Positions 5,936 to 28,139 of a DNA stretch of 55,440 bases are shown here, piece by piece. The notes below the pieces were generated by a model, which did no database searches, was not told the origin of the DNA, and worked only from the letters and a program-made list of their open reading frames with translations. The DNA is taken from NCBI GenBank assembly GCA_009780915.1, contig WQZD01000019.1:1-55440 (forward strand), written 5' to 3'. The translations under genes were made by a program, and so were the position numbers. This stretch comes from Propionibacteriaceae bacterium (GTDB lineage Bacteria; Actinomycetota; Actinomycetes; Propionibacteriales; Propionibacteriaceae). The number at the start of each line of letters is the position of its first letter. The stretch's first letter is position 1.

Positions 5936-5946
5936 GATGGCACTCC

Positions 5947-11137: not shown

Positions 11138-11815
11138 TCACTCCTGGAGGCGGTACCCCAGACCCCGTACGGTCAGCAACCGCAGAGGATGCGCGGGGTC
11201 CACCTCGATCTTCGCCCGCAATCGTCGCACGTGGACGTCCAAGGTCTTGGTGTCCCCGAAGTAGTCCGCCCCCCAGACCCGCTCGATGATCTGACGACGC
11301 GTCAGGACCCGACCGATGTTGCGCATGAGCAGTTCCAGCAACTCGAACTCACGCAACGGCATGTCGACCGCGCGACCGTCGACGACCACCCGGTGACGCT
11401 CCACGTCCATGAGGATCCCGCCGCCGCTCAACACGGCGTCGTGAGGCTCGGAGTCCCGATGTCGGCGAAGCACGGACCTCAGGCGTGCCAACAACTCGGG
11501 AGTGGAGAAGGGTTTGGTGACGTAGTCGTCCGCCCCGGACTCCAGACCCACCACGATGTCAGCCTCGGCGACCCTCGCGGTCAGCATGATGATCGGCACA
11601 TCCGAGCTCAGCCGGATCGTCCGGCAGACGTCGACGCCGCTCAGTTCCGGGATCATCACATCCAGCACGATCACGTCCGGGACATGCTTCTCGAACTCAT
11701 CGAGCGCCTTGCGTCCGTCGGACGCCGTGCGCACCTCGTACCCCTCCCGCCTCAGCAGGTAGGCGAGGGTCTCGCGAACATCGTCGGAGTCCTCCACCAG
11801 CAACAGTCGCGTCAT
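11138..11815 (-). CDS. OmpR/PhoB-type response regulator, RegX3-like
   Basis: 225 residues. The receiver domain (1-115) has the acidic pair ED at 8-9, phospho-acceptor Asp52 in VLDVMIPELSG, a Thr in IIMLTARV and Lys in VTKPFS. The C-terminal winged helix (about 130-225) has LREFELLELLMRN, VWGADYFGDTKTLDVHVRRL and the terminal VRGLGYRL. It closely resembles RegX3, which acts in phosphate response in other actinobacteria, but no pst or phoU gene is visible here, so the signal is unproven. It overlaps the kinase gene by 4 bp, and the pair lies directly downstream of the synthase operon. Confidence 0.92.
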   Translation of the reverse strand: MTRLLLVEDSDDVRETLAYLLRREGYEVRTASDGRKALDEFEKHVPDVIVLDVMIPELSGVDVCRTIRLSSDVPIIMLTARVAEADIVVGLESGADDYVTKPFSTPELLARLRSVLRRHRDSEPHDAVLSGGGILMDVERHRVVVDGRAVDMPLREFELLELLMRNIGRVLTRRQIIERVWGADYFGDTKTLDVHVRRLRAKIEVDPAHPLRLLTVRGLGYRLQE

Positions 11816-12876
11816 CGTTCGCCTTCCTCGTTCGCGGCTATGAAACGCCCCGTGCCAGCCAGGGGCAGGGTGATCGTGAAGGTCGACCCCGACCCTTGGT
11901 GGCTGTCCACGCTCACACCCCCGCCGTGCGCCAAAGCAGTATGTTTCACTATTGCCAATCCTAGTCCCGTGCCGCCGGATCGGCGGGAACGCGCCTGGTC
12001 GGCCCGATAGAAGCGTTCGAAGATCCGATCCTGGTCGTCGGGGGCGATGCCGATCCCCTGATCGATGACATGCACGCTGACCGTCCCGTCCGCCTCATCG
12101 ATCTGCGAGGACACGACCACGCGCGACCCCTTGGGCGAGTAGTGGATGGCGTTGGACAGGAGGTTCTCCAAGGCTGTGACGAGCGCGTCCTCGTCCCCCT
12201 CGACCACATGGTCCACGATTTTCTTCGTCTTCAGCTTCACCCCTTGGATACGGGCGGTCTCGATGGCCTGGGACACGGCCTTGCCGATCCACTCCGCGAC
12301 GGAGATCTGAGTCACAGGTTGGGCAGGCGCCGTGTCCTGCACGTGGGCGAGCGCCAGCATCCCGTCGGCCAGCTTCTCCAGCCGGCGGGCCACCTTGTCC
12401 AACCGGAGCGCGAAGTGCTCCACAGCGCCCGGATCGCTGGCGCAGGAGTGGAGGGCTTGGGCGATCAACCCCACCGATGTCACGGGCGTGCGCAACTCGT
12501 GTCCGATGTTCGAGACGAAATCGCGGCGGATCTGCACGGCGCGGACCTCGTCCGTCCGGTCGGTGACGCTGAGCAGGATCCAGTAGGTCTCCACCACCTC
12601 GGCTTGGATCACGATCTCCTGGTAGGACCCCAGGGACGTCGCATGGCATGAGCGAGTGATGTGCTCACGGGTGACCCATGCCTCGTCCGCCACCTGTGTC
12701 AGGTCGGGATGGACCAAGACCCCCCGGTCATGCGGCACGAGGCTGCGCGCCAAGGGCGAGGCGTACACGATCTTGTGGCGCTTCGTCAGAACCACGGTGA
12801 ATCCACCGAAGGCCCGTGCTGTGGCGATCACGTGGCTCAGCGCCTTTTTCGATCGCAACATCCCGGGCTGACTCAT
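11812..12876 (-). CDS. Sensor histidine kinase, SenX3-like but without membrane helices
   Basis: 354 residues from ATG 12876. A PAS-like domain (about 20-110) includes VVLTKRHKIVYASPLARSLV. The dimerisation domain has phospho-acceptor His126 in SNIGHELRTPVTS. The ATPase domain has N-box ENLLSNAIHYSPKG, G1 VIDQGIGIA, F-box IFERFYRAD and G2 GGTGLGLAIVK. SenX3 proteins usually start with two transmembrane helices; I see no hydrophobic helix here, so it should be cytosolic or membrane-associated by other means. Starts further upstream (12909) add only 11 residues and no helix. It partners the response regulator it overlaps. Confidence 0.9.
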   Translation of the reverse strand: MSQPGMLRSKKALSHVIATARAFGGFTVVLTKRHKIVYASPLARSLVPHDRGVLVHPDLTQVADEAWVTREHITRSCHATSLGSYQEIVIQAEVVETYWILLSVTDRTDEVRAVQIRRDFVSNIGHELRTPVTSVGLIAQALHSCASDPGAVEHFALRLDKVARRLEKLADGMLALAHVQDTAPAQPVTQISVAEWIGKAVSQAIETARIQGVKLKTKKIVDHVVEGDEDALVTALENLLSNAIHYSPKGSRVVVSSQIDEADGTVSVHVIDQGIGIAPDDQDRIFERFYRADQARSRRSGGTGLGLAIVKHTALAHGGGVSVDSHQGSGSTFTITLPLAGTGRFIAANEEGER

Positions 12877-12953
12877 AGCACTACTGTAACCCACGCGGAT
12901 CACCAGCATCGACCGAAGACGGAACCCCGATCAGGACAAGGCTTGGGGCCGCG

Positions 12954-13853
12954 TCAGCGGATGACTCTGCCCAATCGCCACGAGGTGAGGGCGCCCAAGA
13001 CCACGGCCAATCCCAGGAGGATGCCGAACATGGTGGGAGTGCCCAGGATCTGCCCATTCAAGGACAATTGTCCACCGAGGGCGTGCATGATCGTGTCGTG
13101 AGCGCTGTCGTGCAACGAGCCGGCGGGTATCCGGTTCAGCAGATTCGACAACGATGGCTCCATCGCGGGATGTCGGATGATCGACGCGGCCTGCGCGAAC
13201 GGCAAGACGCTGAGGATGGAGACCAGACGGTCGCTCAGTTCGGTCGGCGGGGCGTAACAGAACGAGAGGAACCCGAGGGCTGTGCCCATCAGGACGGAGT
13301 ACCCGCTATAGGCGCCTTGCGTCGCCGTGAACGTGGCCAAGAAGATGTTGAACGAGCAGAAGACCAGGCAGGACACCAGCACCGCGCCCATGCACGCGAC
13401 CAACTGTTGGAACGACATGAGCGGCTCGTCGTGGAACCACGCCCATGCCTGACCGAAAGCCGTCAAGATGGTGGACAGGACGAAGGACGCGATGACGGTC
13501 GCGAGGACGTACGCGACGGCGACCTTCCAGCGTTGGACGGGGGTCACCAGATAATCCGAGAACCGCCCTGTGACACGATCCTCGACGAACGCCGTCAGCA
13601 TCCCCAAGGACGAGCTGAACGTCGCCAACGACGCCACCGAGGCGAACATCCAGGCGTCGCACACGACATAGGCGTCGGATCGAGTGATCCCTCCTCCGAC
13701 GGTGGCGACGACGAGATCCGCCGCCATGTTCCTGAAGAAGAGGAAGAAGAGCAGGAACATCACGATGGGCGACACCAAGGCGAAGAGCAGCGACAGCTTG
13801 TCTCGCCAGAAAAGGGTGAGATTGCGGCGAAGAAGGGTCAGAATGGACGTCAT
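12954..13853 (-). CDS. ABC-2 type transporter permease
   Basis: 299 residues with about six membrane helices in the ABC-2 pattern: an N-terminal cytosolic start (LLRRNLTLFWRDKLSLLFAL), a first helix, a large extracellular loop, then the conserved region (FVEDRVTGRFSDYLVTPVQRWKVAVAYVLATV). A second extracellular segment precedes the last helix. The family exports drugs, polyketides and glycolipids with DrrA-like ATPases. Its ATG overlaps the stop of the hydrolase-ATPase gene (13850-13853), so the two halves are coupled and almost certainly form one exporter. It is the last gene of the synthase operon; the kinase gene starts 77 bp further on. Confidence 0.9.
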   Translation of the reverse strand: MTSILTLLRRNLTLFWRDKLSLLFALVSPIVMFLLFFLFFRNMAADLVVATVGGGITRSDAYVVCDAWMFASVASLATFSSSLGMLTAFVEDRVTGRFSDYLVTPVQRWKVAVAYVLATVIASFVLSTILTAFGQAWAWFHDEPLMSFQQLVACMGAVLVSCLVFCSFNIFLATFTATQGAYSGYSVLMGTALGFLSFCYAPPTELSDRLVSILSVLPFAQAASIIRHPAMEPSLSNLLNRIPAGSLHDSAHDTIMHALGGQLSLNGQILGTPTMFGILLGLAVVLGALTSWRLGRVIR

Positions 13854-15697
13854 TGAGCCACCGATCCCTTTCCACCACGTGGGCGTGTGCCACGTGATCC
13901 ACCGGCGTCGTCAGCAGTGGTCATCCCATCTCCGCTATGGCCGGTCAGTTGGAGGAACACATCGTCCATGGACCCGTGCCGGAACTCGAAATCCTCGATC
14001 TGGTCCCAGATGTACGGAAGCATCCACTTGACCTTGTCCGTCGACTCCACGGGGAAGCGAACGGGGTCGCCTGGGGCGTGGCCGGGAGACAGTTCCACCT
14101 CAGGGAAGAACTTCGCCAAGCGTTTCACCCCCGTGGCCTCGTCCAAGAAACGCACGCTCAAGTGGGAGGACGCGAACCTGTGACGCAAGTACTCGGGCGT
14201 GCCCTGGACGACGATCTCTCCGGCGTCGATGATGCACACCATGTCCGCCTTCTCGGTCTCTTCCATGTAGTGCGTGGTTAGGAAGACGGTCATTCCTTCG
14301 TGGTCGCGCACGTCAGAGATGGCTTGCCAGACCTGCTCACGGCCATGCGGGTCCAATCCCGCCGTCGGCTCGTCCAGGAAGAGGATGTCGGGCTTGTGGA
14401 TGAGGGCCCTGGCGATGTCGGCGCGCCTCTGCTGCCCGCCGGACAGGTGACGATACTGCTGATCGATGAAACCCCCCATCTCGAGAAGGGTGACGAGCTC
14501 GTCGATGCGATCGTCGCGGATGTGTCGATCCAGTCCGTGGAGGCGTGCCCGTACATGCAAGTTCTCCTTGACGGAGAGCCGAGGGTCGAGGAGCGCGGAC
14601 TGGAAGACCACGCCGATGCTTCGACGGATCGCCTCGTTGTCCCGTCCCAGGAGATGGCCCGCCACCATGGCCTGGCCTCCCGACGGGCGTCGTAACGTAG
14701 TCAGGCACTTGATCGTGGACGACTTTCCCGCGCCATTGATCCCGAGAAAGGCGAAGAACGCCCCTTCCTCCACGCTGAAACTGATGCCCTTGACCGCCTG
14801 CACGTCGCCATACGACACGCACAGACCATCGATGCGAATGGCCGGCTGCTCGGTTGCGGCGTCAGCATGCTCCCAGAATCCTTCGAGATCGTTGGGATCG
14901 TCCGCGTGATGGGCGAAGAGCCGATGGGACTGGACGGGGGCGGGGTCTGGGAAGAAGGACACGAGGTGATGCTTCAGCCAGGCCTCCTGCGTGAGCGGCA
15001 GGTAATGACCGGTTTTCACCATCTTCAGCTGTGCGCCGGGGACACGACTGGCCGCCAGGATCTGATCGTCCCGATACGGCGACTGCTTCCCACCCAGGAA
15101 CAGGACGGGCTTATGGATCGTGTCGAGTTTCTCGTTGGTGATGAAGTCGACGTCTTCCATCAGCGACTCGCGTGCGCCGGCCTGGGCCAACGCCTCGACT
15201 CGCTGCTGATAGTCGCCCTTCTGTTTGTCCGTGAGCTTGAGCCCCGTCGCGGCGACGTAGATGTCGAACGACCTGTCGATCCCCTCCTGGTCGGAGGGCA
15301 TGGTGTCCAGATCGCTCTGCTTCATGCCGAACGTCTCGATGAGAACCAGGGAACTGATCCTGTCCGGGCACATCAACATCGCTTTCAGGGCGATGACGGC
15401 GCCGACGCTGTACCCCACGAGATGGGCGGTGTCGATACCGAGGGCGTCCATGACGTCGAACAAGTCTTGCGTCATGTCCGACAGGCCGTAGCCCCAATCG
15501 GAGGAGTCGCTGAGCCCGTGCCCGCGCAGGTCGAACATGACCACGCGGTACCCCTTGTCAGCGAGGGTCTTCGCGCCGCATCGATAAAACACCGTGTGAT
15601 TCGCGAACAATCCGTGAATCATCACGACTGTGTCGAGGCCATCTGCGTTGAGGATGCGATAGAAGAACCTCTCGCCTTGAATGTCAACCCAAGGCAT
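13850..15697 (-). CDS. Alpha/beta hydrolase fused to DrrA-like ABC ATPase
   Basis: 615 residues with two unrelated domains. Residues 1-255 are an alpha/beta hydrolase: oxyanion region MIHGLFANHT, nucleophile elbow GYSVG with Ser97, and catalytic His231 in TGHYLPL. Residues about 280-520 are an ABC ATPase: Walker A GINGAGKSS with Lys325, signature LSGGQQRRADIARAL, Walker B ILFLDEPTAGLD and a switch His in LTTHYMEE. The last ~90 residues are a DrrA-type C-terminal extension. Both catalytic sets look intact and there is no stop or frameshift at the junction. The hydrolase is a good candidate to release the product of the synthases, and the ATPase with the following permease to export it. It overlaps the ACP gene upstream by 14 bp and the permease downstream by 4 bp. 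Confidence 0.9.
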   Translation of the reverse strand: MPWVDIQGERFFYRILNADGLDTVVMIHGLFANHTVFYRCGAKTLADKGYRVVMFDLRGHGLSDSSDWGYGLSDMTQDLFDVMDALGIDTAHLVGYSVGAVIALKAMLMCPDRISSLVLIETFGMKQSDLDTMPSDQEGIDRSFDIYVAATGLKLTDKQKGDYQQRVEALAQAGARESLMEDVDFITNEKLDTIHKPVLFLGGKQSPYRDDQILAASRVPGAQLKMVKTGHYLPLTQEAWLKHHLVSFFPDPAPVQSHRLFAHHADDPNDLEGFWEHADAATEQPAIRIDGLCVSYGDVQAVKGISFSVEEGAFFAFLGINGAGKSSTIKCLTTLRRPSGGQAMVAGHLLGRDNEAIRRSIGVVFQSALLDPRLSVKENLHVRARLHGLDRHIRDDRIDELVTLLEMGGFIDQQYRHLSGGQQRRADIARALIHKPDILFLDEPTAGLDPHGREQVWQAISDVRDHEGMTVFLTTHYMEETEKADMVCIIDAGEIVVQGTPEYLRHRFASSHLSVRFLDEATGVKRLAKFFPEVELSPGHAPGDPVRFPVESTDKVKWMLPYIWDQIEDFEFRHGSMDDVFLQLTGHSGDGMTTADDAGGSRGTRPRGGKGSVAQ

Positions 15698-15986
15698 GAC
15701 AGATGAATTCGGCTATGTCTGACATGGTGAGGCGGGCCAACGTGACCAATGGCCTGTCCGCGAACATCCCGACCAATTGCTCCGAGACCGGGTACTTCTC
15801 ATCGATGAGCTCGCTCAATCGGACCAAGTCGATGCTGTTCAACTGCAACTCGGTGAAGACTCGCGTGCGTCCGGTCACCTGGAGCATGTCGACGACGTCT
15901 GCGCCCAACATCTGTTTGAGGTAATCGATCAGGTCAGCCAGCACTTGGTCTTTCTGGACGTGAACGCCTGGTGTGATCTCCGTCAT
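15684..15986 (-). CDS. Stand-alone acyl carrier protein
   Basis: 100 residues starting MTEITPGVHVQKDQVLADLI. The 4'-phosphopantetheine site is the Ser of ELQLNSIDLVRLSELIDEKY, so the usual DSL is NSI here. Four-helix carrier proportions fit. The ATG at 15986 lies 1 nt after the TGA of synthase B, and the end overlaps the hydrolase-ATPase gene, so it is translationally bound to both. It may receive the finished chain from the synthases and hand it to the hydrolase, or carry a starter unit. The PPTase domain at the end of synthase B is the likely activator. Confidence 0.88.
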   Translation of the reverse strand: MTEITPGVHVQKDQVLADLIDYLKQMLGADVVDMLQVTGRTRVFTELQLNSIDLVRLSELIDEKYPVSEQLVGMFADRPLVTLARLTMSDIAEFICHALG

Positions 15987-15987
15987 G

Positions 15988-18900
15988 TCAGTGGCCTCCG
16001 CTCTTGGTCGTGTCAGTCCAGCCCACCACGTAGTCAGTGTCGTAGACCATGGTGGTGATCTTGGTGTCGCCGATGTACAGGTCGTCACCGTCAAGCTTGG
16101 TGACGACGAACTTCTTCGGGTCCCCTCCCAGGCCTGTGCCCAGCATCTTCGAGTACGCCTCCTTGGCCACCCAGAAGCGCATAGCGCCCGTGACGGTGTC
16201 GCTCATCGTGGCGAGGAGCGCCTTCTCGGATTCCGTGAGCACTCGGCTCCAGAACTCGGGGTCTTTGGGTGCGATCTTCTCCACGTCGACGCCCACAGGA
16301 TGGTCGCTGACAGCCGCGACGGCATTCGCGCCTGTGTGCGCGAGAGACACTTCGACCTCTTGGTCGAAGGGCAAGGATTCACGATACCGGACATACGGCT
16401 TCCCACGCTCGTCCTTGAGCAAGGACACCTCGATGGGATACAGCATGTGCTTGGGATCCTTCGTCACGAAAGATCGCACGCCGTCCTTCACCGCCACGCG
16501 GCCCGCCACGAAATTGATCACAGCATCCTCATTGGTCATCGCCAAGGCGCGGTACCTCTCTTCGGTGGTGAGATAGCGAAGGTAGGGGAAGTACCTGGCC
16601 GTGCCTTTGAGATCTTTCAGGGTGTACCAGTACACGCCCTCGGCGATCTCTTTCGCGACGAGGTCTCTGTCGGGGTGCATGATCACACGCCACATGTCGG
16701 TGTCCAGACCCGTGCGCTGGTTCACCCAGCTACGAGCGATCGCCCATGCCCGGCCATCGCGCAGGTACGCCAAGTCGGCCGTGATGAACATGTCGTTCAG
16801 CTGACGGATGACGCAATAGGCGTCGAAAATCCCCTCCTGGTCGCGGAAGTCCTGATAGAAGGTGAGCGACCGGAGCCGGACTGGGAAGGAGACCTTGTTC
16901 GAGTCTTCGTAGAGGTGAAGGTAGAGACCGATCATCTGGCCGCTCTGGTCCAGCATCGATCCCTTCCCTTCGCGCTTGGTCACGACGTTCTGGAATCCAT
17001 ACTTGGTGAATCTCTTCGACTCGATGAGGGACCAATACCGCTGCCTGTGGAAGGAGTACTCCGTGTATTGGTAGTCGGCAGGGATAGGCTCCATGACATC
17101 GGGTCCCAAATCCTTGATCAACTGCTCGATGAACTCGACAGGAGGTTCCGCGAACTCCTCCCCCAACGTGACGTCCATCTGGATGAATCCCGCGATGGAG
17201 AGGGAGACGGTGAAGTCGGATTTCCAGAACCCCTTCACGGTCTCGTGGAACGGCTCATTGAGCGGGATGAAGCTCATCGCGATCAACGGACCGATCTGCA
17301 GGACCTTCAGGTCCGGAACCTGCGCCTGCGCGATCTCCGCCATCAGCTCGATGGTCATCGTCAGTGGAACGACCGGATAATTGTCGTCCTTGTACGGCCA
17401 GTCATCGGGCTGCCGGACGACGGAGTGGTCGGCGACATACGGATGAGTCTCAAGGCTGAGGTCGATGGGGACTTCGAAGCGGGTCCCAGCACGCCTGACG
17501 AAGGACTGGGTCGACGGGCGAGCAGCAGGAGCCTGGGTCGACACCGCAGGAGCGGACGGGGCCTTGGCGGTCTCGACAGGAGTCGTCAGCGTCGGAGTCC
17601 CAGCAGTCTGCGACGATTGCGTCGTCGTGGGCGCCGCTGGCGCCACCGTCTCGGGCACGGCTGGCGCCACCGTCTCGGGCACGGCTGGCGCCACCGTCGG
17701 GGGCTGCGTCGACGGCGCCATCGCCACGGGTGCCACAGGCGCCATCGTCGCCACGGGAGCCACAGGGGCCACGGGGGCAACCGGCGCCATCGTGGATGCC
17801 ATCGGCGTCATGGGCGCCATGGGCGGCATGGGTGTGGCAGGCGCCGCAGAGTTGGTGAAGCCCGTCGGCACACCGCCTGGCCCGGGCAGAGGAACCGAGA
17901 CCGGCGCCGCCACAGGGGTGGGCCACGTATCGTACCTGGTGAATCCCCGTCGAGGAATCCCCCAGGAGTTCACGGGCATGGGCCCCGGCATGGGTGATGC
18001 CACGCTGGCCGCCTTCATGAGCGCCTGACGCTCCACATCGAACTGGGCCGCCATGGCTTGACGCTCCGAATCGAACTGCGTCGACAGGGTCTCGCGCTCG
18101 GCTTCCAAGCGATCGGCCATCTCCTTCTCAGCAGCCTGGGAGGCGACCGCCTCTTTCGTCGCGACGTACTCCCCCATGACCTCGTCCAAGGTGTCCAGAT
18201 TGGTCCGCAGCAAAGATCCCTTAGGGAGGAAGTAGATACTCTTGAACTTCTGATACCCCAGCGGCATGCCCATGAACGTCAGATCGGCAGGCCCCCCCAT
18301 GATGTACATGAGGGCATGGACACGACGCATTTGGTCGATGGAATCCCGCAGTGGCGTGACAGAGGCGATCGCCGCGAAATCCTGTCCCTCCAAGATGTCA
18401 TCCACGAAGTTCGGCAACGATCCGACCCCCACCTGGATGAAGACCCGGGCCTGGCTCTCTTTGTACATCTTCTCAATCGTCTGTCGGAACATGATCGGTT
18501 TGAAGAGCACGCCCGCTACGATATCGTCGACGACCGACTCTTGCCGGTCATCGACCTGGGATATCGACGTGGATGACCAGATCGGCTTCTTCGCCGGGTG
18601 GACGACGAGCGTGCCATTCACCGTCTCCGAGAAGTGCGTCACCGACTCCGCGTAGGGGGTGTGGATCACGCTGTTGAAGCCCAAGATGTGATACTGGATC
18701 GACGCCGCCGACAATCCCTGAGTGAAACGACGCAACGGCTCCTCGCCGAAGACGCAGAATGTGCATTGCTTAGGGCAATTGTCCGTGATGAGGGTGATGT
18801 CGCCCACCGACACGACGAGGTCATTGATCTTCTCCGATTGGGAGTCACCGAAGACGGCGACGTAGGAACAGTCGGGAATCGCATTGAGCTTGTCGACGTC

Positions 18901-20889
18901 CACCAGGGAGGCGGGATCTCGACCGAAGTCCCCGGATATCGAGTCGAAAGAGTCATCCAGGATGCCCTCGGCCCTGGCGGCATGCCACTGGCCGACGCTG
19001 TGACCGACGTAGTAGTCCGCCTCGATTCCGGTCTTCTCCAACGCGGCATGGACCTGCATGGAGGTCGCGAAATGGTCGACCGCCTGCCTCGCCGATTCGT
19101 CATCTGCGGGGTATTCCACCCATTCCACATTCAACTCGTCTGTGATCGAGTCGTGCTCCACGCCGCCTGTCGTGTCCCACCCGGGGAACATGAAGACAAC
19201 CTTGCCACCCTGGCTGATCAATGGCTTGTCGGTGTACCAGATGTCATTGCGACCCAACCATGGCTTTCCCTCTTCCACGATCTTGGCGGCGAGCTGGAAC
19301 CGCTCCTCAGACGGGGAAAAGATCACCAAGCGGTGAGAATCTCCAGGCCGACCGATCAGCGGATTCACCTGATTGGTGAAACACTCTTCTTTTATCCTCG
19401 ACAGCAGTCCTTCGCGGGTGGGCGCCGCGATGGCGATGGCGCTCGCCATGGAGAACCGCCTCCTGTCAGCCCTGTACCGTCTCGCTTGGTCCTCCGGCTC
19501 GTGATAACCCGTCATGACGGCATGGCAATTGATTCCACCGAACCCGAAGGAGTCCACGGCGGCGACGAGCGGCATCTCGGACTCGTCCCAATCGATGAGG
19601 GTCTGAGCTGGCTCGAATCGTGAGTCGTCCATCTGCTTCAAGGGTTTCTCGCAGTGCAGGGTCGGTGGTATCTGCCGGTGGTACAGAGACAACGCGGTCT
19701 TGATCAGCCCCATCGTTCCCGCGGCCGGCATGAGGTGTCCGATGTTCGACTTCACAGAACCCAGATAGGCCTTGCGCACAGAGCTGTCTCCGAACACGCG
19801 CGTCAGCGCCTCCAACTCCGTGGCGTCTCCCACGACCGTGCCCGTGCCATGGGTCTCCACATAGGTCACCTGATGGGGGTCCATCTGGGCTTTCTCCCAT
19901 GCCGCCGTCAAGACGCGGACCTGTCCGTTCACATCGGTGAGGAAGACCGAATGCCCGCCGCCGTCCGATCCGGAGGCCGTCCCCTCGATCACGGCATAGA
20001 TGCGGTCATTGTCCTCCAGCGCACGCTCCAGACTCTTGACCACCAAGAACCCACCGCCTTGGCCGATCAGAAGACCATCGGCGTCTTGGCTGAACGGAGA
20101 CGTCTGACCCGACCGTGACATCGCGCCCATGAGGTTGAACGCGCTCCAGAACACGGACGACTGCGGGGGATGCAGGGCGCCGACCACGACGACATCCGAC
20201 TGGCCGGTCTGCAGCAAGGAGATGCCCTGGTCGAGAGCGACGATCCCACTGGCGCACGCCGCGTCGACCGTGTACGCCGGCCCATGCATGTCGAACTGGT
20301 TGGCCACCATGGAGGCCACGAGGTTCGGGATCATGGCAGTCATCGTGTCGCCCTGGTAGCGTCCATAGGAGGCCTGGTACGCCTTCTTGATCCGCACCAA
20401 GTCCTCGTCGGGCATGTCGGGCAAGGCGTTCTTCAGCAGTTTCGTCATCTCCAGGGCCAGGCGGACGACCGCAGCCCCGCGCAACTGGGCCTCACTCGAG
20501 AAGTTCCCGCGTCCGATGATGACCGAGGCCTTGTCGAGGGACACGCCATTGTCAGGTATCCCCGCATCGTTGAGCGCTGCCTCGACAAGGAGCAGCGAGA
20601 TCATCTGATCCGGGTCCAACCCTTCGGCGGCCAGTGGAAGGATCCCGAAACGCACCGGGTCGACCATCGCCCGGTCCGTGAATCCTCCACGATCGCAATA
20701 GAACACATCGGGCTGGAGATTGTCTTTGGCGCCGAAGTAGAACGGTTCGATGACATTCTCAGGGCAATGGGTGATGGAATCCACTCCCCCGGAGAGATTT
20801 CTCCAGAACTCTCGTAGATCCTTGGCGCCGGGGCAATACACCGACATTCCGACAATGGCAGTCTCAAAGACCTTCTTTTTCGCAGGCAT
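15988..20889 (-). CDS. Iterative type I synthase B: KS - AT-like - DH - PPTase
   Basis: 1,633 residues. The KS (about 8-460) has an intact triad: Cys212 in VDAACASGI, His347 in ETHGTGT and His385 in SNIGHL. An AT-like region (about 545-870) has GHSVGQ with Ser631, but FPGQG is replaced by FPGWDTT and the usual (A/S)FH motif by VIHTP, so it may be inactive or have another role. A coiled coil (~905-955) and a Met/Pro/Ala-rich linker (~960-1140) follow. A hotdog DH begins with His1149/His1155 in HPYVADH. The end (~1430-1633) is an Sfp-type phosphopantetheinyl transferase: Asp1535 and Glu1537 in GVDVEKI, then WVAKEAYSK. There is no KR or internal ACP. DH-PPTase order recalls enediyne PKSE; the rest recalls PfaC-like subunits. 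It starts 26 bp after synthase A, with GAGGGAAAG before the ATG. Confidence 0.92.
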   Translation of the reverse strand: MPAKKKVFETAIVGMSVYCPGAKDLREFWRNLSGGVDSITHCPENVIEPFYFGAKDNLQPDVFYCDRGGFTDRAMVDPVRFGILPLAAEGLDPDQMISLLLVEAALNDAGIPDNGVSLDKASVIIGRGNFSSEAQLRGAAVVRLALEMTKLLKNALPDMPDEDLVRIKKAYQASYGRYQGDTMTAMIPNLVASMVANQFDMHGPAYTVDAACASGIVALDQGISLLQTGQSDVVVVGALHPPQSSVFWSAFNLMGAMSRSGQTSPFSQDADGLLIGQGGGFLVVKSLERALEDNDRIYAVIEGTASGSDGGGHSVFLTDVNGQVRVLTAAWEKAQMDPHQVTYVETHGTGTVVGDATELEALTRVFGDSSVRKAYLGSVKSNIGHLMPAAGTMGLIKTALSLYHRQIPPTLHCEKPLKQMDDSRFEPAQTLIDWDESEMPLVAAVDSFGFGGINCHAVMTGYHEPEDQARRYRADRRRFSMASAIAIAAPTREGLLSRIKEECFTNQVNPLIGRPGDSHRLVIFSPSEERFQLAAKIVEEGKPWLGRNDIWYTDKPLISQGGKVVFMFPGWDTTGGVEHDSITDELNVEWVEYPADDESARQAVDHFATSMQVHAALEKTGIEADYYVGHSVGQWHAARAEGILDDSFDSISGDFGRDPASLVDVDKLNAIPDCSYVAVFGDSQSEKINDLVVSVGDITLITDNCPKQCTFCVFGEEPLRRFTQGLSAASIQYHILGFNSVIHTPYAESVTHFSETVNGTLVVHPAKKPIWSSTSISQVDDRQESVVDDIVAGVLFKPIMFRQTIEKMYKESQARVFIQVGVGSLPNFVDDILEGQDFAAIASVTPLRDSIDQMRRVHALMYIMGGPADLTFMGMPLGYQKFKSIYFLPKGSLLRTNLDTLDEVMGEYVATKEAVASQAAEKEMADRLEAERETLSTQFDSERQAMAAQFDVERQALMKAASVASPMPGPMPVNSWGIPRRGFTRYDTWPTPVAAPVSVPLPGPGGVPTGFTNSAAPATPMPPMAPMTPMASTMAPVAPVAPVAPVATMAPVAPVAMAPSTQPPTVAPAVPETVAPAVPETVAPAAPTTTQSSQTAGTPTLTTPVETAKAPSAPAVSTQAPAARPSTQSFVRRAGTRFEVPIDLSLETHPYVADHSVVRQPDDWPYKDDNYPVVPLTMTIELMAEIAQAQVPDLKVLQIGPLIAMSFIPLNEPFHETVKGFWKSDFTVSLSIAGFIQMDVTLGEEFAEPPVEFIEQLIKDLGPDVMEPIPADYQYTEYSFHRQRYWSLIESKRFTKYGFQNVVTKREGKGSMLDQSGQMIGLYLHLYEDSNKVSFPVRLRSLTFYQDFRDQEGIFDAYCVIRQLNDMFITADLAYLRDGRAWAIARSWVNQRTGLDTDMWRVIMHPDRDLVAKEIAEGVYWYTLKDLKGTARYFPYLRYLTTEERYRALAMTNEDAVINFVAGRVAVKDGVRSFVTKDPKHMLYPIEVSLLKDERGKPYVRYRESLPFDQEVEVSLAHTGANAVAAVSDHPVGVDVEKIAPKDPEFWSRVLTESEKALLATMSDTVTGAMRFWVAKEAYSKMLGTGLGGDPKKFVVTKLDGDDLYIGDTKITTMVYDTDYVVGWTDTTKSGGH

Positions 20890-20915
20890 CTCTTTCCCTC
20901 TTCGTCATTCGTCGC

Positions 20916-23900
20916 TCAGCCAAGCGCGGACAAGGTTTTATCCACAATGGAATTGATCTGGACGTCATTGCCCCCGAGCATCATGACCTGTGGCTCGTGC
21001 CCCTCCATCAGCTCGTTCATGAAGACCTCTCCACCGCTGTCGAGGGGCAAGAGGGTGAACCCGCGCCGGCCCATCTCCGCCTCGAGCGTGGGAGAGACCA
21101 TCCCGGCTCCCTTCCAGCCTCCGAACGCGAAGCTGACGACTCGCAGACTGTCGGACTGCATGGACAGGATTTCGGCGGCCATGTCGAGGGCGTCGTTCCC
21201 GGCGGCATAGTCGGTCTGCCCCCGGTTTCCGAGAGACCCTGACACGGAGGTGAAGAAGACCATGAGTTTGCCGGCCTTGCCGATCTGGGCGATCACGGGC
21301 AAGGGCGCCACCTTGGTGGAATACACCTTCTCGAAGGACTCCCATGACTTGTCGCGGAAGAGCTTGTCGTCGAGGACTCCAGCCGCGTGGACCAGACCAT
21401 CGACGTGCCCCTTCTCTGTGATGAGCCTGTCGACCAACGCGTGCAGGGCGGTCGGATCGCACACGTCGACACACTCGTAGGAACATGTGGCGCCTGTGGC
21501 CGCGATGCTCGCCAGAGCGTTCTCGATGCTGATGGCCTTCATGACGAGCCCCACCTTGGCGATGATCTGTTTCAGGTCGTTCATGTGCTCGCTCTGGATC
21601 AGGTACTTCTGCACCTCGTCTCGCGTGTGAAGACCCTCGTACTTCTGTGCCATGGCTGGGTTTCGCTCAGTACGGCCGACGAGGACGTAGTGGCACGGCA
21701 TCTGCGACGCCATCCTCTGCATGAGGTGCGTCGAGATGCCCTGGGCGCCTCCGAGCCAGATGACGACCGAGGACTCGTCCAATCCCGCCCACGGGGTCGC
21801 GTCGGAATGCTCCTCGATCATCTGCTTGTACCGGAACCTCTTGCCGTGATCGTACGTCACGTCGGGGCGCATAGCGGGATCCATGACCTCCCTCAGGATC
21901 ACATCGGGAGCGGTCTCGTCGAACGGCGTCAGGACGGTGCAGACCTTCCATTGGATGCCCGGGTATTCATGGGCCATGCTCTTGATGAATCCACGGAATC
22001 CTTGGAGGGCGGAGAAGTCGGTCGTGTCCGGCTCGGCGAGGATCCGTCCGGCGCTGTCGTCGAAGACGCCCACATAGTCGATGACAGACAAGTCGGCGCC
22101 CTTGAGGAGGGTGAACAACTCCTTCATCCCCCAGACCTCGTCGTCGGCGACGAACACTACGGTGTCGGATTCGGTCAGCGAGTCTCCGGGCTTCAAAACC
22201 TTCGCCGTCGCCCCTTCAGCGGTGAGCCGCTCGCAGATCCCCTGGGCGAAACGCCCCGAGGTCACGGCCACGGAATGCCCGTCCAGGCTGCGACTCTCGT
22301 CCGAGAACGGGATCTCATGGCTACGCCACACCAGGCGCGTGATGGGGACCTCCCCCTCGGCCGCGTTCGCTGGGGACGCCGAGACGTCTTCCGCTGGTGT
22401 CTCCTCGGCCACGGACGCCTGCTCGACTCGACTCGGCGCCGCCTCGACCTGCGACGAGGGTTGATCACTCTCAGACGCCGTCTCGACCGGCGCGCTCGCA
22501 GCAGCGTTCGGATCGTCGATCGACTGGAGGAAGTCCACCATCATCCTCAGCGTCTTGATGGTGGCGAGCGTCTCCAGGACGGCGTCGGCGGCGTCGGCGT
22601 CGACCTCGGAGTCAGTGGGCAGCGCCACCTTCTCCTCCAAGGCGCCGATGATCTCCAGGCGCTTGATCGAGTCGATGCTCAGGTCGGCCTCCAGATCCAT
22701 GTCCAAGCCCATCATCTCGGGCGGGTACCCTGTCTTCTCGGCGACCAGATCCAAGATGATTTGCGTGAGTTGATCCTTGGTCAAGTCGGTGAGCTGTGGC
22801 AGGACGCTGGCCGACGAGGGGCCGACGGAGTCGTCTGGCTGCTCCACGGGGGCCTGAAGATCCGGCGCCAGCTGCGCGACCGCCGACGTGACATCCTCCG
22901 CCACGACCTCAGGCGCGACAGCCGCCACGGTCGGCGCAGCCGGTGGCATCGGCGTCGGCTGAGCGACGGGCGTGGCCGTCGGCATCGCCGCCATGGGCTG
23001 GTACGCCTCGGCTGGCATCGGGGCCACGGGCGCCATGGGGGGCATCGTCGGCATCGGCTGCGGCGGCGCCATGTACGCCGTGGGCGCCATCGTCGGCATG
23101 GGTGTCATATACGCCATCGGCGCCATGGGCATCATCGGCGCCATCTGGGCGGCGCCGCCCATCATGGGCATCGAGTACTGACCTTGCCCATATGCCATGC
23201 TGGCGAGAACGATGTCGCGCTGGTCGTCGAGCATGACGCGCAGATTCTGCAAGTAGGTGTAGACCAACTGGTTCTGTGGCGTGGGCATCAACGGCTGTGC
23301 CACGGCGACGGGCGGCGGAACCAGCTCGGTCGTCGGATGGGCCGATGGGGCGGGTGTTTCTGACATGTTGTCTTCTCCTTGGTCAGTTCGTGAAGTGTCC
23401 GGATAGTATGACCGTGTTTCGATTATGAGATGTTGTTCTCCCTGGTCACGCCATTGCGCGATCGGGATCGCCTCTTTGCCGTCCACCAACCACGTGGTGG
23501 AGGCGGTGGCGTATTGGGCGGGCGTGTCGAGGTTCAGCGCGGTGACGTGCCTACCCGAGAAGAGCCTCCCGGCGTCGATCGTCCGACCCGACGCGACCAG
23601 CTGCGCCAGGCCACGCAAGAAGGTGCGCATACCGTGCTCCCCCGTGTCTTGGGTGGGCACCGTGACGATGTCCGAGGGCAGCGTGGCGCCAGCCAGACCG
23701 ATGAGCGCAGTGCCCGGGCCAGCCTCGATGAAGACGCGCACGCCGTCGTCGTACATCGCGTGCAACTCGTCGGTGAACCGGACCGGACGGACCAGGTGTT
23801 CGCACAGCCGCTCTTTGATGGCGGCTTCGTCCGTCGGGTACGGCTTGGCGGTCGTGTTCGACCACACCGCCAGTCGTGGTTCCTGAAGATCGACATGCTC

Positions 23901-26900
23901 CAGGGAGCCGGCGAAGGCGCGGTCAGCCCCCTCCAACAGCGGACTGTGGAAGGCGCACGCCACATCCAGTCGTGTGGCCCGTATCCTCCTGTTCTTGCAC
24001 TCGACGACCAGCGCGTCGATGGCCGGAGTCGTGCCGCCCACCACCGTCTGGTTCGTGGCGTTGAAGTTGACGGGCCACAGGTCCTTGTGCCCGGTCAACA
24101 GCTCTTCCACATCCCGTTGAGGCAGGGTCAGGGCAGCCATGGCGCCCGGATCCTCTCCGACACGCGACAGGATGGCCTCGGCACGGGCCCTGGACAGACC
24201 CACGAGATCCGTCGAGGAGATGGCCCCCGCGTACGCCAAGGCCGGCAACTCGCCATAACTGTGCCCAGCGACAGCGTCGGGCTCGATCCCACACCACGTC
24301 AGCAACTGGGCGACGGCCGAGTCCACGATCCCCAGGATAGGCTGCGCGTTTCTCGTGTCGGTGATGGCCTGGGCTTGCTCGTTGCGAGCTTCTTGCGTGA
24401 ACACCGTCTGCGGGAAGAGGATCTGGGCGTAGTCGGGGTGGAGCGCCAAGGGTTCCCGCAGGAAGGGGAACATGACGAACAGGTCCCGAGCCATGTTGAC
24501 CTTCTGGCTGCCTTGTCCTGGGAAGAGGAAACTGACCTTCCCTGGGACCGGGTCGCGGTAGAAGACGCCGGGGACCTTGTCGCCCTGCTGGACATGCTCG
24601 ATGGCCTCGAGCAGGGCCGCCCACGACTCGGACACGATGCACACCTGCACCGGCTTGTCCGACTCGGTCGCCAATGAATAGGCCACGTCGCGCAGATGGA
24701 TCTCATGATTGACCGCCCACAGTTCCGTGACGCCACGCAGGCGCTGGCGAGCGTCGTCCAAGGAATCTCCGCGCACGAGGAAGAGCTCGCACGGCCACAC
24801 GGCAGCGGTTTGCTCGGGGGGTGTGGGCACATAGTTCTCGACGATCGCGTGGAAGTTCGAGCCGCCGAATCCGAACCCGGAGACTCCCGCGATCCGGCGC
24901 TGGTCTGTCCAGACGCCTGCGTGGCCATTCGCGTTGAACGAGAAGGGGGTCACGCCGGCGTGGTACGAGTGCACAGGCTTCTCCAGGTGCAACGTCGGCG
25001 GGATCACGCCGTGGCGCACGGCGAGTGTGGCCCGGATCAACCCAGCCACGCCGGCCGTGCACTTCGTGTGCCCGATCTGGGTCTTCACGGAGCCGATCCA
25101 GGTCTGGCCGGGAAGGGCGCCCGCGTCGAGCATGACCCGCGACAGGGCGGTCAACTCCGTGCGGTCGCCGACCGCCGTGCCCGTCCCGTGGGCTTCCACG
25201 AGACCGACTTCGCTGGGGAGGATCCCAGCCATCTGATAGGCACGCTTGAGCGCTTTGACCTGTCCGGACATGTTCGGGGCGGTCAAGCCCAAGGAGCGCC
25301 CGTCCGAGGATCCCTCGACGCCACGGATGACCCCGTAGATCTTGTCCTGGTCGCGCTCGGCGTCAGACAGACGCTTCATGATGATGGCGGCCACGCCTTC
25401 CCCGAGGGCCAGCCCGTCCCCCGACTCGTCGAACGTGGCGCAGAACCCTCGTGGCGACAGGGCGTGCGTCCCCGAGAACCACACGTAGTCCAAGATGCTG
25501 TTGTGCATGTCGGCCCCTCCGCAGATCACCATGGAGGAGCGGCCAGACCACAGTTCCTGGCATGCGACGTCCACGGCTGCGAGAGAGGACGCGCAGGCCG
25601 CGTCGACGACGTAGTTGCGCCCGCCACAATTCAGTCGATTCGCGATACGACCGGCGATGACGTTCGACAGGACCCCGGGGAAGGAGTCCTCGTCCACGAC
25701 GGACAACTCCTCGGCGATGTCCTCGGGAACTAGCCCGAACAACGACCGCAAGCCGGTGCGCAGACCGTAAATGGCTGACAGCTCTCCCATCGCTTCCGCG
25801 GCGAAGATCACCGACGTGTCGGGCAGTCCCTCCTTGATCGAGTCCGCGTACCCGGCATCACTCAAGGCCCGCTTCGCCACGAGAAGACCGACCAATTGGA
25901 CCGGCTCGATGGAGTTCAGCGACGCCGGCGGTATTCCGAACTCCATGGGATCGAAGGCGACACCGCTCAAGAACGCTCCCCATTTCGAGGTGACGTGGTC
26001 GGTGTCAGTCGTGTCGGGTCGATAGAAGATCGCGGGGTCCCAGCGATATCGCGGCACCTCGGTGACGCAGTCGCGTCCGGTGAGGGTGTTGCTCCAGTAC
26101 TCGTCGATGTCGTGAGCGTCGGGGAAGACTCCTGCCATGCCGATGATGGCGATGGGCTCCCTGCTCAGATCGGCGAAGGACTCCGTCTCGTCACCGTCTG
26201 GCGAGGGATTGTCGAGATCGACGACAGGCGGCAAGGCGCGGACCAACTCCTCGGCCTGGACGCTCACAGCCTCGTGCAACTGCGCCATGGTCTGTGGTTG
26301 ACGCAGCAGGGGCGTGACGGAGCCCGCCATGTACAATCCGTCGCTGAGCTGCCCTGTCGGGTCGACGTCGACCAATTCCCGCGTCTCGCCTCGACGCATC
26401 CGTCCCTTGGTGGCGAGCCGGGCTCGTCCGAGGTTGAGGTCTTCCAGCATGAGCCTCTTGTCCAGGGCTTCCACGTCCAGCGCCTCGACCCGTGCCTTCT
26501 CCTTCTGGAAGAAGTCCACGAAGGCGGTGGGAAGGGCTCGGGTCTCCTGGCCTGGGGCAGACTCCAAGAGCACGGTGTGATCCGACTCGGCGAGCAGATC
26601 CTGGAAGGTTCGCGTGATGGCGCCCGAGGTCACCGCCTCGGTCGTCATGAGATAGGCGGAGCCCATCTGGACCCCGACATCGACTCCCCGCGCGGCGAGA
26701 GAGGCCGCCATGATGGCGACGAAAGCCGCCGAGAAGGAATCATGGATGCCCCCAGCGAACACAGCCGTGACGATGGACGGATCGTCCAGATCCAGCAGGT
26801 GCATGATCTGCTTCTCCCACAGGATCGTCGAGTACAAGGACCCGACGTGGCCACCCGACTCACGTCCTTCGAAGATGACGGACCGCACGCCCTCTTTGAT

Positions 26901-28139
26901 GTACTGGTCCAGCAGGGACGCAGCGGGGACGTGGAGGAACGCCCTGATCCCGGCCTGCTCGAACTTCTTCGCCTGCGACGGTCGTCCACCGGCCACCACC
27001 ACGGCGGTCGGCTTGGGGTCGCTCGCGATGACCTTCTCCGCCTGCGCGTCGAAGACCGCGGGTTGGATGAACCCGAGCAGACCCGCCCCCCAGGGGGACG
27101 GTGACACGACTCGACCCGTCTCCGCCAGCATCGCGGCCGTCGCCTCAGGCGACGACATCCCGATCGCGAGCATGGGCATGGCGCCCGCGTCGGCGACGTC
27201 CAGCATGAACTGCGCGGTGTCGGACACCCGCGCCATCGGCCCCTGGATGACCGGATAGGTCAAGGACAGTTTGCGCGCGAACGGGGTGGACGCCGAGAGG
27301 GCGCAGCGGTGCTGAGCCTGTCGAAGATGTCCGTACGCGGCTTCGTGGATGGCGGTGACGAGAGTGTCCAGATGCCCGTACCTCGTGAAATATTCCCCCG
27401 CCACATGGAAGTCCTGCCCCAAGGGTATGAGATTCGCGTCCAGGTTCCACCCGCCGAGGTAGTCGATCACATTCTCCGTCGCCCCCAGCCGTGGCATCGT
27501 GGGCCACCTGAGGACTCGCCACCCCTGGACGATCGTCGTCTCCCCGCTGGTCAGCTTGCGCAAGACAGCCTTCAATTCCCGTGGCGCCCCGCACTCAGGC
27601 AACAAGACGACCTGTGAGTCCAGATGCAGGCCGCTCGCCCCCAACGCCAGATAGGCGGCGCCGGAATGCACACCCACCCCGCCATGGACATAGACCCGGA
27701 CTCCCCGGTCGACGGCCATCCCGATCACACGCTGGAAGAGCATGAACGTCGATTCCTCGCACACGTCTCCTTCGGAATCATTGCCCTTCACGGCGATCGC
27801 GGAGGCGGACGCGGCGATCGCCTCCTCCGCCTCATGGAAAGTGCGCACTTGCCACACGCGCTCGGGCTCGGCAGGGAAGACTGAGTCGTCGAATCCCCAC
27901 GGCAGCAGAATGCGTGTCACCTGCGGCGGAAGATCGTGAGGCGCCGCCGTGTCGACCACCGCGACCCCGAAATCGTCCCGAACACGCGACGCGAGCGTCG
28001 CCAGTGCTTCCTTGGCCGCGTCCGCGTCCCGACCCAGATGCAGGTACGCGAAGGCCCCACCACGTAACGTCTCCTGTGCGAGTCTCACATCCGGCATCTC
28101 ACACGGTGACACAACGCACACGTCATAGTTGTTTCTCAT
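20916..28139 (-). CDS. Iterative type I synthase A: PfaD-like ER - KS - AT - ACP - KR
   Basis: 2,407 residues from ATG 28139, preceded by GGAG at 6 nt; an upstream GTG at 28175 is less likely. Residues 1-640 form a nitronate monooxygenase-like FMN domain as in PfaD (YPVIQGPMARVS, VIFEGRESGGHVG, VFAGGIHDSFSAA, VDVGVQMGSAYL), the trans-acting enoyl reductase of PUFA synthases, here fused in cis. KS (~658-1085) has Cys849, His984 and His1024. AT (~1180-1490) has FPGQGSQ, Ser1294 in GHSYGE and CAFHS, pointing to malonyl-CoA. A Met/Pro/Ala linker precedes one ACP with Ser1824 in SIDSIKRLEI, the PUFA-synthase form of the motif. KR (~2080-2380) has Rossmann WLGGAQGIS and Tyr2311 in DYAAGN. There is no DH; synthase B supplies it. 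First gene of the operon. Confidence 0.93.
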   Translation of the reverse strand: MRNNYDVCVVSPCEMPDVRLAQETLRGGAFAYLHLGRDADAAKEALATLASRVRDDFGVAVVDTAAPHDLPPQVTRILLPWGFDDSVFPAEPERVWQVRTFHEAEEAIAASASAIAVKGNDSEGDVCEESTFMLFQRVIGMAVDRGVRVYVHGGVGVHSGAAYLALGASGLHLDSQVVLLPECGAPRELKAVLRKLTSGETTIVQGWRVLRWPTMPRLGATENVIDYLGGWNLDANLIPLGQDFHVAGEYFTRYGHLDTLVTAIHEAAYGHLRQAQHRCALSASTPFARKLSLTYPVIQGPMARVSDTAQFMLDVADAGAMPMLAIGMSSPEATAAMLAETGRVVSPSPWGAGLLGFIQPAVFDAQAEKVIASDPKPTAVVVAGGRPSQAKKFEQAGIRAFLHVPAASLLDQYIKEGVRSVIFEGRESGGHVGSLYSTILWEKQIMHLLDLDDPSIVTAVFAGGIHDSFSAAFVAIMAASLAARGVDVGVQMGSAYLMTTEAVTSGAITRTFQDLLAESDHTVLLESAPGQETRALPTAFVDFFQKEKARVEALDVEALDKRLMLEDLNLGRARLATKGRMRRGETRELVDVDPTGQLSDGLYMAGSVTPLLRQPQTMAQLHEAVSVQAEELVRALPPVVDLDNPSPDGDETESFADLSREPIAIIGMAGVFPDAHDIDEYWSNTLTGRDCVTEVPRYRWDPAIFYRPDTTDTDHVTSKWGAFLSGVAFDPMEFGIPPASLNSIEPVQLVGLLVAKRALSDAGYADSIKEGLPDTSVIFAAEAMGELSAIYGLRTGLRSLFGLVPEDIAEELSVVDEDSFPGVLSNVIAGRIANRLNCGGRNYVVDAACASSLAAVDVACQELWSGRSSMVICGGADMHNSILDYVWFSGTHALSPRGFCATFDESGDGLALGEGVAAIIMKRLSDAERDQDKIYGVIRGVEGSSDGRSLGLTAPNMSGQVKALKRAYQMAGILPSEVGLVEAHGTGTAVGDRTELTALSRVMLDAGALPGQTWIGSVKTQIGHTKCTAGVAGLIRATLAVRHGVIPPTLHLEKPVHSYHAGVTPFSFNANGHAGVWTDQRRIAGVSGFGFGGSNFHAIVENYVPTPPEQTAAVWPCELFLVRGDSLDDARQRLRGVTELWAVNHEIHLRDVAYSLATESDKPVQVCIVSESWAALLEAIEHVQQGDKVPGVFYRDPVPGKVSFLFPGQGSQKVNMARDLFVMFPFLREPLALHPDYAQILFPQTVFTQEARNEQAQAITDTRNAQPILGIVDSAVAQLLTWCGIEPDAVAGHSYGELPALAYAGAISSTDLVGLSRARAEAILSRVGEDPGAMAALTLPQRDVEELLTGHKDLWPVNFNATNQTVVGGTTPAIDALVVECKNRRIRATRLDVACAFHSPLLEGADRAFAGSLEHVDLQEPRLAVWSNTTAKPYPTDEAAIKERLCEHLVRPVRFTDELHAMYDDGVRVFIEAGPGTALIGLAGATLPSDIVTVPTQDTGEHGMRTFLRGLAQLVASGRTIDAGRLFSGRHVTALNLDTPAQYATASTTWLVDGKEAIPIAQWRDQGEQHLIIETRSYYPDTSRTDQGEDNMSETPAPSAHPTTELVPPPVAVAQPLMPTPQNQLVYTYLQNLRVMLDDQRDIVLASMAYGQGQYSMPMMGGAAQMAPMMPMAPMAYMTPMPTMAPTAYMAPPQPMPTMPPMAPVAPMPAEAYQPMAAMPTATPVAQPTPMPPAAPTVAAVAPEVVAEDVTSAVAQLAPDLQAPVEQPDDSVGPSSASVLPQLTDLTKDQLTQIILDLVAEKTGYPPEMMGLDMDLEADLSIDSIKRLEIIGALEEKVALPTDSEVDADAADAVLETLATIKTLRMMVDFLQSIDDPNAAASAPVETASESDQPSSQVEAAPSRVEQASVAEETPAEDVSASPANAAEGEVPITRLVWRSHEIPFSDESRSLDGHSVAVTSGRFAQGICERLTAEGATAKVLKPGDSLTESDTVVFVADDEVWGMKELFTLLKGADLSVIDYVGVFDDSAGRILAEPDTTDFSALQGFRGFIKSMAHEYPGIQWKVCTVLTPFDETAPDVILREVMDPAMRPDVTYDHGKRFRYKQMIEEHSDATPWAGLDESSVVIWLGGAQGISTHLMQRMASQMPCHYVLVGRTERNPAMAQKYEGLHTRDEVQKYLIQSEHMNDLKQIIAKVGLVMKAISIENALASIAATGATCSYECVDVCDPTALHALVDRLITEKGHVDGLVHAAGVLDDKLFRDKSWESFEKVYSTKVAPLPVIAQIGKAGKLMVFFTSVSGSLGNRGQTDYAAGNDALDMAAEILSMQSDSLRVVSFAFGGWKGAGMVSPTLEAEMGRRGFTLLPLDSGGEVFMNELMEGHEPQVMMLGGNDVQINSIVDKTLSALG
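23364..23380 (-). promoter_or_regulatory. Internal ribosome site and in-frame ATG inside synthase A
   Basis: On the coding strand AAGGAG (23380-23375) is followed after 8 nt by an in-frame ATG (23366-23364) at codon 1592, exactly between the AT domain and the linker-ACP-KR half. The ~30 codons before it are less GC-rich and look like former spacer. Initiation here would give a separate 816-residue ACP-KR protein beginning MSETPAPSAH. Confidence 0.5.

Follow-up and report, generated by a model that had tools for sequence, protein, structure and literature searches.

We analyzed a 55,440 nt stretch of DNA (hereafter the window) from a Propionibacteriaceae bacterium (assembly GCA_009780915.1), which is one whole contig, WQZD01000019.1, of a 2.78 Mb genome. 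According to the list of open reading frames (ORFs) of the window, an operon of five genes on the minus strand encodes two large synthases, here called S1 and S2, a free acyl carrier protein (ACP), a hydrolase fused to an ABC ATPase, and a permease. From S1 to the permease, the genes are first separated by gaps of 26 bp and 1 bp and then overlap by 14 bp and 4 bp.

20916..28139, minus strand: S1, synthase with the domain order enoyl reductase (ER, double TIM barrel), ketosynthase (KS), acyltransferase (AT), ACP, ketoreductase (KR); ORF, Pfam and alignment of relatives
15988..20889, minus strand: S2, synthase of 1633 aa with the domain order KS, divergent AT (AT'), dehydratase (DH), 4'-phosphopantetheinyl transferase (PPTase); ORF, Pfam and alignment of relatives
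15684..15986, minus strand: free ACP; invariant S51 and match to solved ACPs
13850..15697, minus strand: alpha/beta-hydrolase (about aa 1-250) fused to a DrrA-like ABC ATPase (about aa 286-600); Pfam and NCBIfam
12954..13853, minus strand: ABC-2 permease; Pfam, kept in relatives

The frame of S1 is open to 28175. We consider the conserved position 28139 the better start because most proteins in the alignment of S1 relatives start there. A first-pass annotation of the same DNA had placed the S1 start at this position, and its operon position, strand and gene spacing were recovered with identical coordinates.

In S1, Pfam finds an NMO/FabK-type ER (residues 302-633), a KS (673-1065), an AT (1216-1529), a PP-binding domain (1806-1853) and a KR (2138-2355). 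In S2 it finds a KS (11-414) and a PPTase (1531-1608), and the AT' (614-821) scores 26.2 bits, which is below the cut-off of 32.7. The domains of both synthases are as follows.

27306..28136, minus strand: S1 aa 14-290, N-terminal TIM barrel akin to the ER barrel, without the catalytic His; model and profile comparison
26256..27305, minus strand: S1 aa 291-640, FabK-type flavin mononucleotide (FMN) enoyl reductase, motif SGGH (H443); Pfam, alignment and structure match
24831..26159, minus strand: S1 KS, C861/H996/H1036 invariant in the alignment of S1 relatives; Pfam and alignment
23586..24539, minus strand: S1 AT, GHSYGE ... AFHSP, malonyl-like motif; Pfam and alignment
22536..22808, minus strand: S1 single ACP, DLSIDSIK; Pfam, alignment and motif count
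20946..22343, minus strand: S1 KR, K2288/S2310/Y2323 invariant in the alignment of S1 relatives; Pfam and alignment
19495..20865, minus strand: S2 KS, C212/H347/H385 invariant in the alignment of S2 relatives, not a chain-length factor (CLF); Pfam and alignment
18295..19212, minus strand: S2 divergent acyltransferase-like domain, GHSVG and HTP; sub-cut-off Pfam and alignment
16615..17502, minus strand: S2 dehydratase of the polyketide synthase (PKS) type, H1155 and D1314 invariant; alignment, model and structure match
16015..16602, minus strand: S2 C-terminal PPTase; Pfam

The KS, AT, ACP, KR and ER domains have intact motifs that do not vary between the aligned relatives; the exceptions are two residues of the AT' of S2 (S631 and H743), which are nearly, not fully, invariant. 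Residues such as those of the S1 AT motif are linked to malonyl specificity. The DH stretch of S2, 316 residues between AT' and PPTase, has no Pfam match. Its structure model (mean pLDDT, the predicted local distance difference test score, 86.7) matches PKS dehydratases, best MlnB (5hst; E = 1.9e-13, query template modelling score (TM) 0.63) and also MAS-like DH. PKS dehydratases use a catalytic His/Asp pair, to which H1155 and D1314 fit. Thus the domain order of the first-pass annotation, ER-KS-AT-ACP-KR and KS-AT'-DH-PPTase, stands, with an AT' below the Pfam cut-off and a DH recognized by model and structure match.

The annotated domain list did not include a second TIM barrel in S1. The structure model of residues 1-660 (pLDDT 86.6) has this extra N-terminal barrel besides the FabK-type barrel, and the two barrels match each other with hhalign (E = 4e-8, probability 95%). 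The best structure match of the ER is FabK (7l00; E = 3.2e-18, target TM 0.85), whereas PfaD follows at rank 42 (E = 2.4e-9, target TM 0.48, a low value that is partly due to the greater length of PfaD). The catalytic His motif described for FabK and PfaD (PMC13311796) is present as SGGH in the second barrel. Where this His would align, the first barrel has D in the window; the seven other rows covering the site have R five times, K once and L once. We suggest that the ER could be an internal pseudo-dimer with one active barrel. The N-terminal barrel is matched in many relatives outside the gut clade described below and is therefore a feature of the wider family. An ER with a second, His-less barrel is a testable structural feature.

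The free ACP has no Pfam match, yet its alignment matches solved ACPs (E = 2.6e-7) and contains the invariant Ser (S51). The ABC ATPase scores 268.9 bits on TIGR01188 (DrrA), below the curated cut-off of 312.45. Like DrrAB-type exporters, the operon pairs a DrrA-like ATPase with an ABC-2 permease; unlike them, it has the ATPase fused to a hydrolase. The fusion occurs in the window and in two relatives (G005 and G013), while hydrolase and ATPase are separate adjoining genes in other relatives. Fusion or fission has probably happened more than once, since the three fused cases do not form one group in the tree of the S2 KS. Close relatives of the ATPase (56-57% identity) and of the permease were also seen at L029 (17046-18955) and L033 (17106-19066).

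A scan of genome contigs with the single S2 sequence confirmed zero relatives; with the S2 alignment 358 relatives were confirmed, and the following counts refer to the best 80 of the 358. S1 is found together with S2 in 77 of the 80 loci, which belong to several phyla (no S1 match in L051, L056 and L087), and in most cases a free ACP comes after the pair, frequently with an alpha/beta-hydrolase as well. L056 carries tandem S2 copies at 6-6969, the end of one and then a complete one. In ten relatives (L038-L045, L048 and L049 of the same 80, counted once) we read the gene order; S1, S2 and the ABC ATPase gene are neighbours, with S1 cut by the contig end in three, and S1 and S2 are 42-58% identical to those of the window. 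There are a few exceptions among the ten: a hydrolase match is missing in G007 and G008, the ACP of the window finds no ACP in G008 and G012 (that of G012 is found with more probes), and G008 has no permease match, its contig ending there. An ABC-2 permease match follows the synthase in all 9 termite-gut Propionibacteriaceae loci with enough downstream DNA; other loci of the gut clade have MacB-type exporters.

Of 19 genomes from the genus (own genome included), 12 encode the C-terminal part of S2; of the 12 genomes of good quality, 9 do. Together with the conserved domains and the conserved operon this rules out chance ORFs. Among 117 genomes sampled from the order, 8 match this part, own genome included, the other seven with at most 31% identity, and there is no match in 20 same-family genomes of other genera among those listed. 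Of the 1292 plasmid records that match, 2 reach 80% coverage of S2, with an identity of about 31%.

Before any tree was built, 31 of the 80 loci were labelled as gut loci from their record titles; Parabacteroides sp. PH5-46 was so labelled from its genus, which we take to be a gut genus. Trees were computed for the S2 KS (KS2, 81 rows) and for the S1 KS (KS1, 61 rows with at least 80% of this domain). The window and the 31 gut loci form one side of a branch with an SH-aLRT (Shimodaira-Hasegawa-like approximate likelihood ratio test) support of 100 in the KS2 tree and 99 in the KS1 tree; as the loci had been selected by their similarity rank to the window, clustering is favoured. In a careful KS2 tree of 49 of the 81 rows the support is 100/100. 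This gut clade spans Actinomycetota, Bacillota, Bacteroidota and one metagenome-assembled genome (MAG) named 'Azoarcus'. The approximately unbiased (AU) test rejects monophyly of Actinomycetota (p = 1.26e-5) and of Bacteroidota (p = 6.4e-7), and vertical inheritance from actinobacterial synthases is thereby rejected. Strongly supported KS2 subclades are Tannerellaceae (5 rows), Propionibacteriaceae with one 'Actinomycetes' MAG (13 rows) and L050-L052 (Family XIII). The transfers look old, because Propionibacteriaceae and Tannerellaceae each form one KS2 group; Bacillota, Coriobacteriales and a second 'Actinomycetes' MAG are intermixed. In the KS2 tree, the closest rows outside the clade are Bacteroidota (Olivibacter, Parapedobacter, Chitinophaga). 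The trees are midpoint-rooted and give no direction of transfer. Termite sample codes are given, for other bins or the whole sample, in the available text of three papers: Lab288, Nt197, Nc150 and Cu122 (PMC7024585), Gsp477 and Roe453 (PMC11707648), and Md513 (PMC12483993). Among the top-ranked literature matches we found no report of a termite-gut branch of the synthase.

The gut clade differs from the other relatives in its ACP number and in its downstream genes. All 23 clade S1 proteins of at least 2150 aa have one ACP motif; of the 34 such proteins outside the clade 8 have one, 22 two, 3 three and 1 four. Downstream genes were counted on the same strand up to 8 kb after S2 in loci with at least 2.5 kb there (61 of 80, that is 20 of 31 gut and 41 of 49 outside loci; 19 were dropped), with the identities of the probe genes taken from Pfam. 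A glycosyltransferase follows in 0/20 clade loci versus 37/41 outside, an ABC-2 permease in 9/20 versus 0/41, a MacB-type permease in 6/20 versus 1/41, and either permease type in 15/20 versus 1/41. The 15 permease cases come from Propionibacteriaceae (9), Tannerellaceae (4), Coriobacteriales (1) and Clostridiales (1). Single loci show further features. In the 'Azoarcus' MAG (L047, 10001-21337) S2 precedes S1, and no ACP, hydrolase or exporter match is present in the 3 kb after them. In a Coriobacteriales locus (L053, 18730-20559) the ABC and FtsX genes are followed by an acetyl-CoA carboxylase carboxyltransferase gene, possibly for the supply of malonyl-CoA. Downstream of S2 in L042, L051 and L054 there are matches to a radical SAM protein that carries a B12-binding domain; it was first found in L054 and may modify the product.

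The first-pass annotation held that the layout matches no known arrangement. This claim has to be given up: S1 and S2 occur together across several phyla, including the species Chitinophaga pinensis of Type N. The survey of Shulse and Allen (2011; PMC3098273) lists, in the parts available, Type M (Actinosynnema, Frankia, Renibacterium, Streptomyces avermitilis) and Type N (Chitinophaga pinensis, Chryseobacterium gleum) as uncharacterised secondary lipid synthases. These types are marked by a pfa-like cluster that contains one or more KS, ACP and KR domains, all of which the operon has, and the PPTase motifs GKP (P1a) and VSLAH (P1b') of S2 fit the patterns x(G/D)xP and hShxH of the adjacent PPTases of Types M-T (PMC3098273). 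C. pinensis strain YS-16 has a locus (L069) with the same core of S1, S2, ACP and hydrolase, 47% and 39% identical to the window in the longest segments that match; compared with the other loci, its ORFs are shorter and perhaps broken. The clade of the operon differs from this locus in having one ACP, exporter genes and no downstream glycosyltransferase match, and it is separate from Chitinophaga as well as from the actinobacterial branch. The strains of the 2011 survey are not among the rows of the KS2 tree, where the gut clade stands next to the Bacteroidota named above; the proximal KS is that of S1. What is new here is thus the cross-phylum gut clade as a sub-branch, the core layout of S1 and S2 being known already. 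The main text of a 2026 survey of PUFA-like hybrids (PMC13291983), as far as available, does not mention Chitinophaga, termite or Frankia.

The genes and their relatives make it probable that the operon encodes a secondary lipid synthase of the Type M/N kind, iterative and of type I, which belongs to a branch spread horizontally among insect-gut bacteria, and that the long acyl product of this synthase is released and exported. FabF-, FabD- and FabK-like ORFs, with the genome's only FabA/FabZ-family match beside them, lie on another contig (C33, L037), so the operon is an accessory pathway next to separate FAS II-like genes. Taking the domains, their intact active-site motifs, the conserved operon, the clade membership and the linkage to exporter genes directly from the sequences, we suggest the following order of acyl transfer, chain structure, release and export. 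The PPTase of S2 would activate the ACP of S1 and the free ACP. Then, the AT of S1 would load malonyl units, and the KS domains of S1 and S2 would extend the chain. The KR of S1, the DH of S2 and the FabK-type ER of S1 could process it to a long acyl chain, which is fully or partly reduced or conjugated. The expected product would thus be a long malonyl-derived acyl chain that is reduced, partly reduced or conjugated. The finished chain might be taken by the AT' of S2 or by the free ACP. The alpha/beta-hydrolase probably releases it, or could pass it to an acceptor, and finally the ABC-2 pair might move it out of the cell. Secretion is suggested because the exporter sits in the operon. The annotation had seen here a self-contained system that makes, activates, releases and exports its product. 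This is supported as far as it concerns a synthase related to those of polyunsaturated fatty acids (PUFAs), iterative and of type I, that comes with a PPTase of its own, a hydrolase likely to release the product, and an exporter; it is plausible for release and export, but wrong on uniqueness; the conserved gene order that the annotation proposed to look for is indeed seen, both in the ten relatives and in the 77 of 80 loci. Export is the best-supported new part of that interpretation.

It is also conceivable, if rather unlikely, that a long-chain lipid is not secreted but flipped into the cell envelope by the ABC-2 pair. Envelope lipids are among the substrates that ABC-2 transporters can handle. 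In loci outside the clade this core adjoins glycosyltransferases (in the 37 of 41 loci) and in Chitinophaga condensation/PapA-type acyltransferases, therefore a glycolipid is a likely ancestral product. Heterocyst glycolipid synthases (Type F, hgl) are likewise PUFA-related and recall the relatives with adjoining glycosyltransferases; however, hglC is KS-CLF-AT and the cluster lacks a dehydratase/isomerase (DH/I) according to the available survey text (PMC3098273), whereas S2 has no CLF and carries DH and PPTase. A glycosyltransferase match is absent from all 20 clade loci, and the MacB, HlyD and outer-membrane efflux genes of Tannerellaceae (L065 by Pfam, L061-L063 by similarity) suit secretion across both membranes. 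An origin of the cross-phylum pattern in misbinned contigs from one gut lineage is very improbable. Most clade loci are indeed MAG contigs, and the single 'Azoarcus' locus has a reversed gene order and an unstable tree position, but the Tannerellaceae, Propionibacteriaceae and Family XIII subclades are strongly supported with several MAGs each, the record of L065 is titled as a strain (Parabacteroides sp. PH5-46), and flanking genes differ.

Synthesis of methylene-interrupted PUFAs in the style of PfaA-E has the smallest chance of the readings considered. The best NCBIfam match of both S1 and S2 is TIGR02813 (PfaA), the operon shares with PUFA synthases the KS-AT-ACP-KR order in S1, an FMN TIM-barrel ER and a PPTase, and fused and rearranged pfa clusters exist (PMC3098273, in the text available). 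On the other hand, S1 reaches 844.8 bits on the PfaA model, below the curated cut-off of 1010.1. PUFA synthases have tandem ACPs, whereas S1 has one ACP motif and one PP-binding match; PfaC has a KS-CLF and a FabA-type DH/I pair, whereas S2 has one KS, no CLF and a PKS-type DH; and the ER is nearer to FabK than to PfaD. We therefore reject membership in the PUFA synthases. As a FabA-type isomerase is missing from the operon, the product is unlikely to contain cis methylene-interrupted double bonds. A pathway for an enediyne or polyene antibiotic is quite improbable as well. The enediyne polyketide synthase (PKSE) is a single KS-AT-ACP-KR-DH-PPT chain with conserved companion genes beside it. 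The operon has KS-AT-ACP-KR and DH-PPTase pieces in the same order and a DrrA-like ATPase, but it is split into two chains and has a second KS-AT' and a fused ER, and on these grounds membership in the PKSE family is rejected. Pfam suggests no tailoring or companion gene in the 20 neighbouring ORFs, several of which have no match; companion-gene models were not run and short ORFs lay outside the scan.

Several points weigh against an exporting, horizontally spread branch. The 'Azoarcus' row changes its neighbours between the trees, the mixed group for KS2 and Propionibacteriaceae for KS1, and some contigs may have been binned wrongly. A termite sample code is confirmed for 12 of the 31 clade loci (Actinomycetota, Bacillota, Bacteroidota), and the termite origin of the other 19 is unconfirmed (TD116, Gx481, Gx485, Ehx436, Hm464, Ct408, Nm470, Po218, Rs511, Nc350, Cf509, Cc175 and strain PH5-46). 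The relatives of the ABC pair at L029 and L033 have no synthase match in about 17 kb upstream. An ABC ATPase of either kind follows S2 in 12/20 clade loci and also in 11/41 outside, and an MFS protein follows S2 and ACP in Olivibacter, outside the clade; from the ATPase matches it follows that transport genes are not confined to the clade. Downstream ACPs are found in only 16/20 clade loci (41/41 outside) and hydrolases in only 13/20 (22/41 outside). Few exporter events are seen, since Propionibacteriaceae and Tannerellaceae together supply 13 of the 15 permease cases, and the exporter class differs between phyla. Moreover, the probes were taken from the same loci, which biases the contrast between clade and outside.

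We tentatively go one step further. A single-ACP synthase lineage without glycosyltransferases might have passed between at least three phyla, with each lineage adding its own exporter, so that unrelated bacteria of the termite (perhaps also cockroach) gut would secrete acyl compounds of one class into a habitat that they share, where these could act as signal, surfactant or weapon. According to the available text of the 2011 survey (PMC3098273), no product was known for Types M and N. A branch that is tied to one animal habitat, crosses phyla and is linked to exporters points to a secreted lipid acting between gut bacteria or with the host, and for a product search there is now a short list of carriers, including the record titled as a Parabacteroides strain.

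Downstream of the operon, at a distance of 44 bp, the window has a two-component pair that was not part of the annotated surroundings.

11138..12909, minus strand: histidine kinase and response regulator

The pair is a possible regulator of the operon. No match to it was found in the ten relatives' loci read, and in the 80 related loci two-component matches are limited to one weak kinase (L072) and one weak regulator (L053).

Elsewhere in the window three large genes stand out. The minus strand at 37116-47567 encodes a 3483-aa protein with 28 DUF7507 and 13 DUF11 stretches, probably a surface protein, and the plus strand at 107-5200 a 1697-aa protein of Big_1 and Invasin_D3 Ig-like repeats. 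A helicase-nuclease with AAA_11/AAA_12 and MTES_1575 endonuclease domains is encoded on the minus strand at 49535-55051. This stretch has a GC content of 0.52, versus 0.60-0.67 elsewhere, and lies beside a tRNA-Pro gene; it looks like an island.

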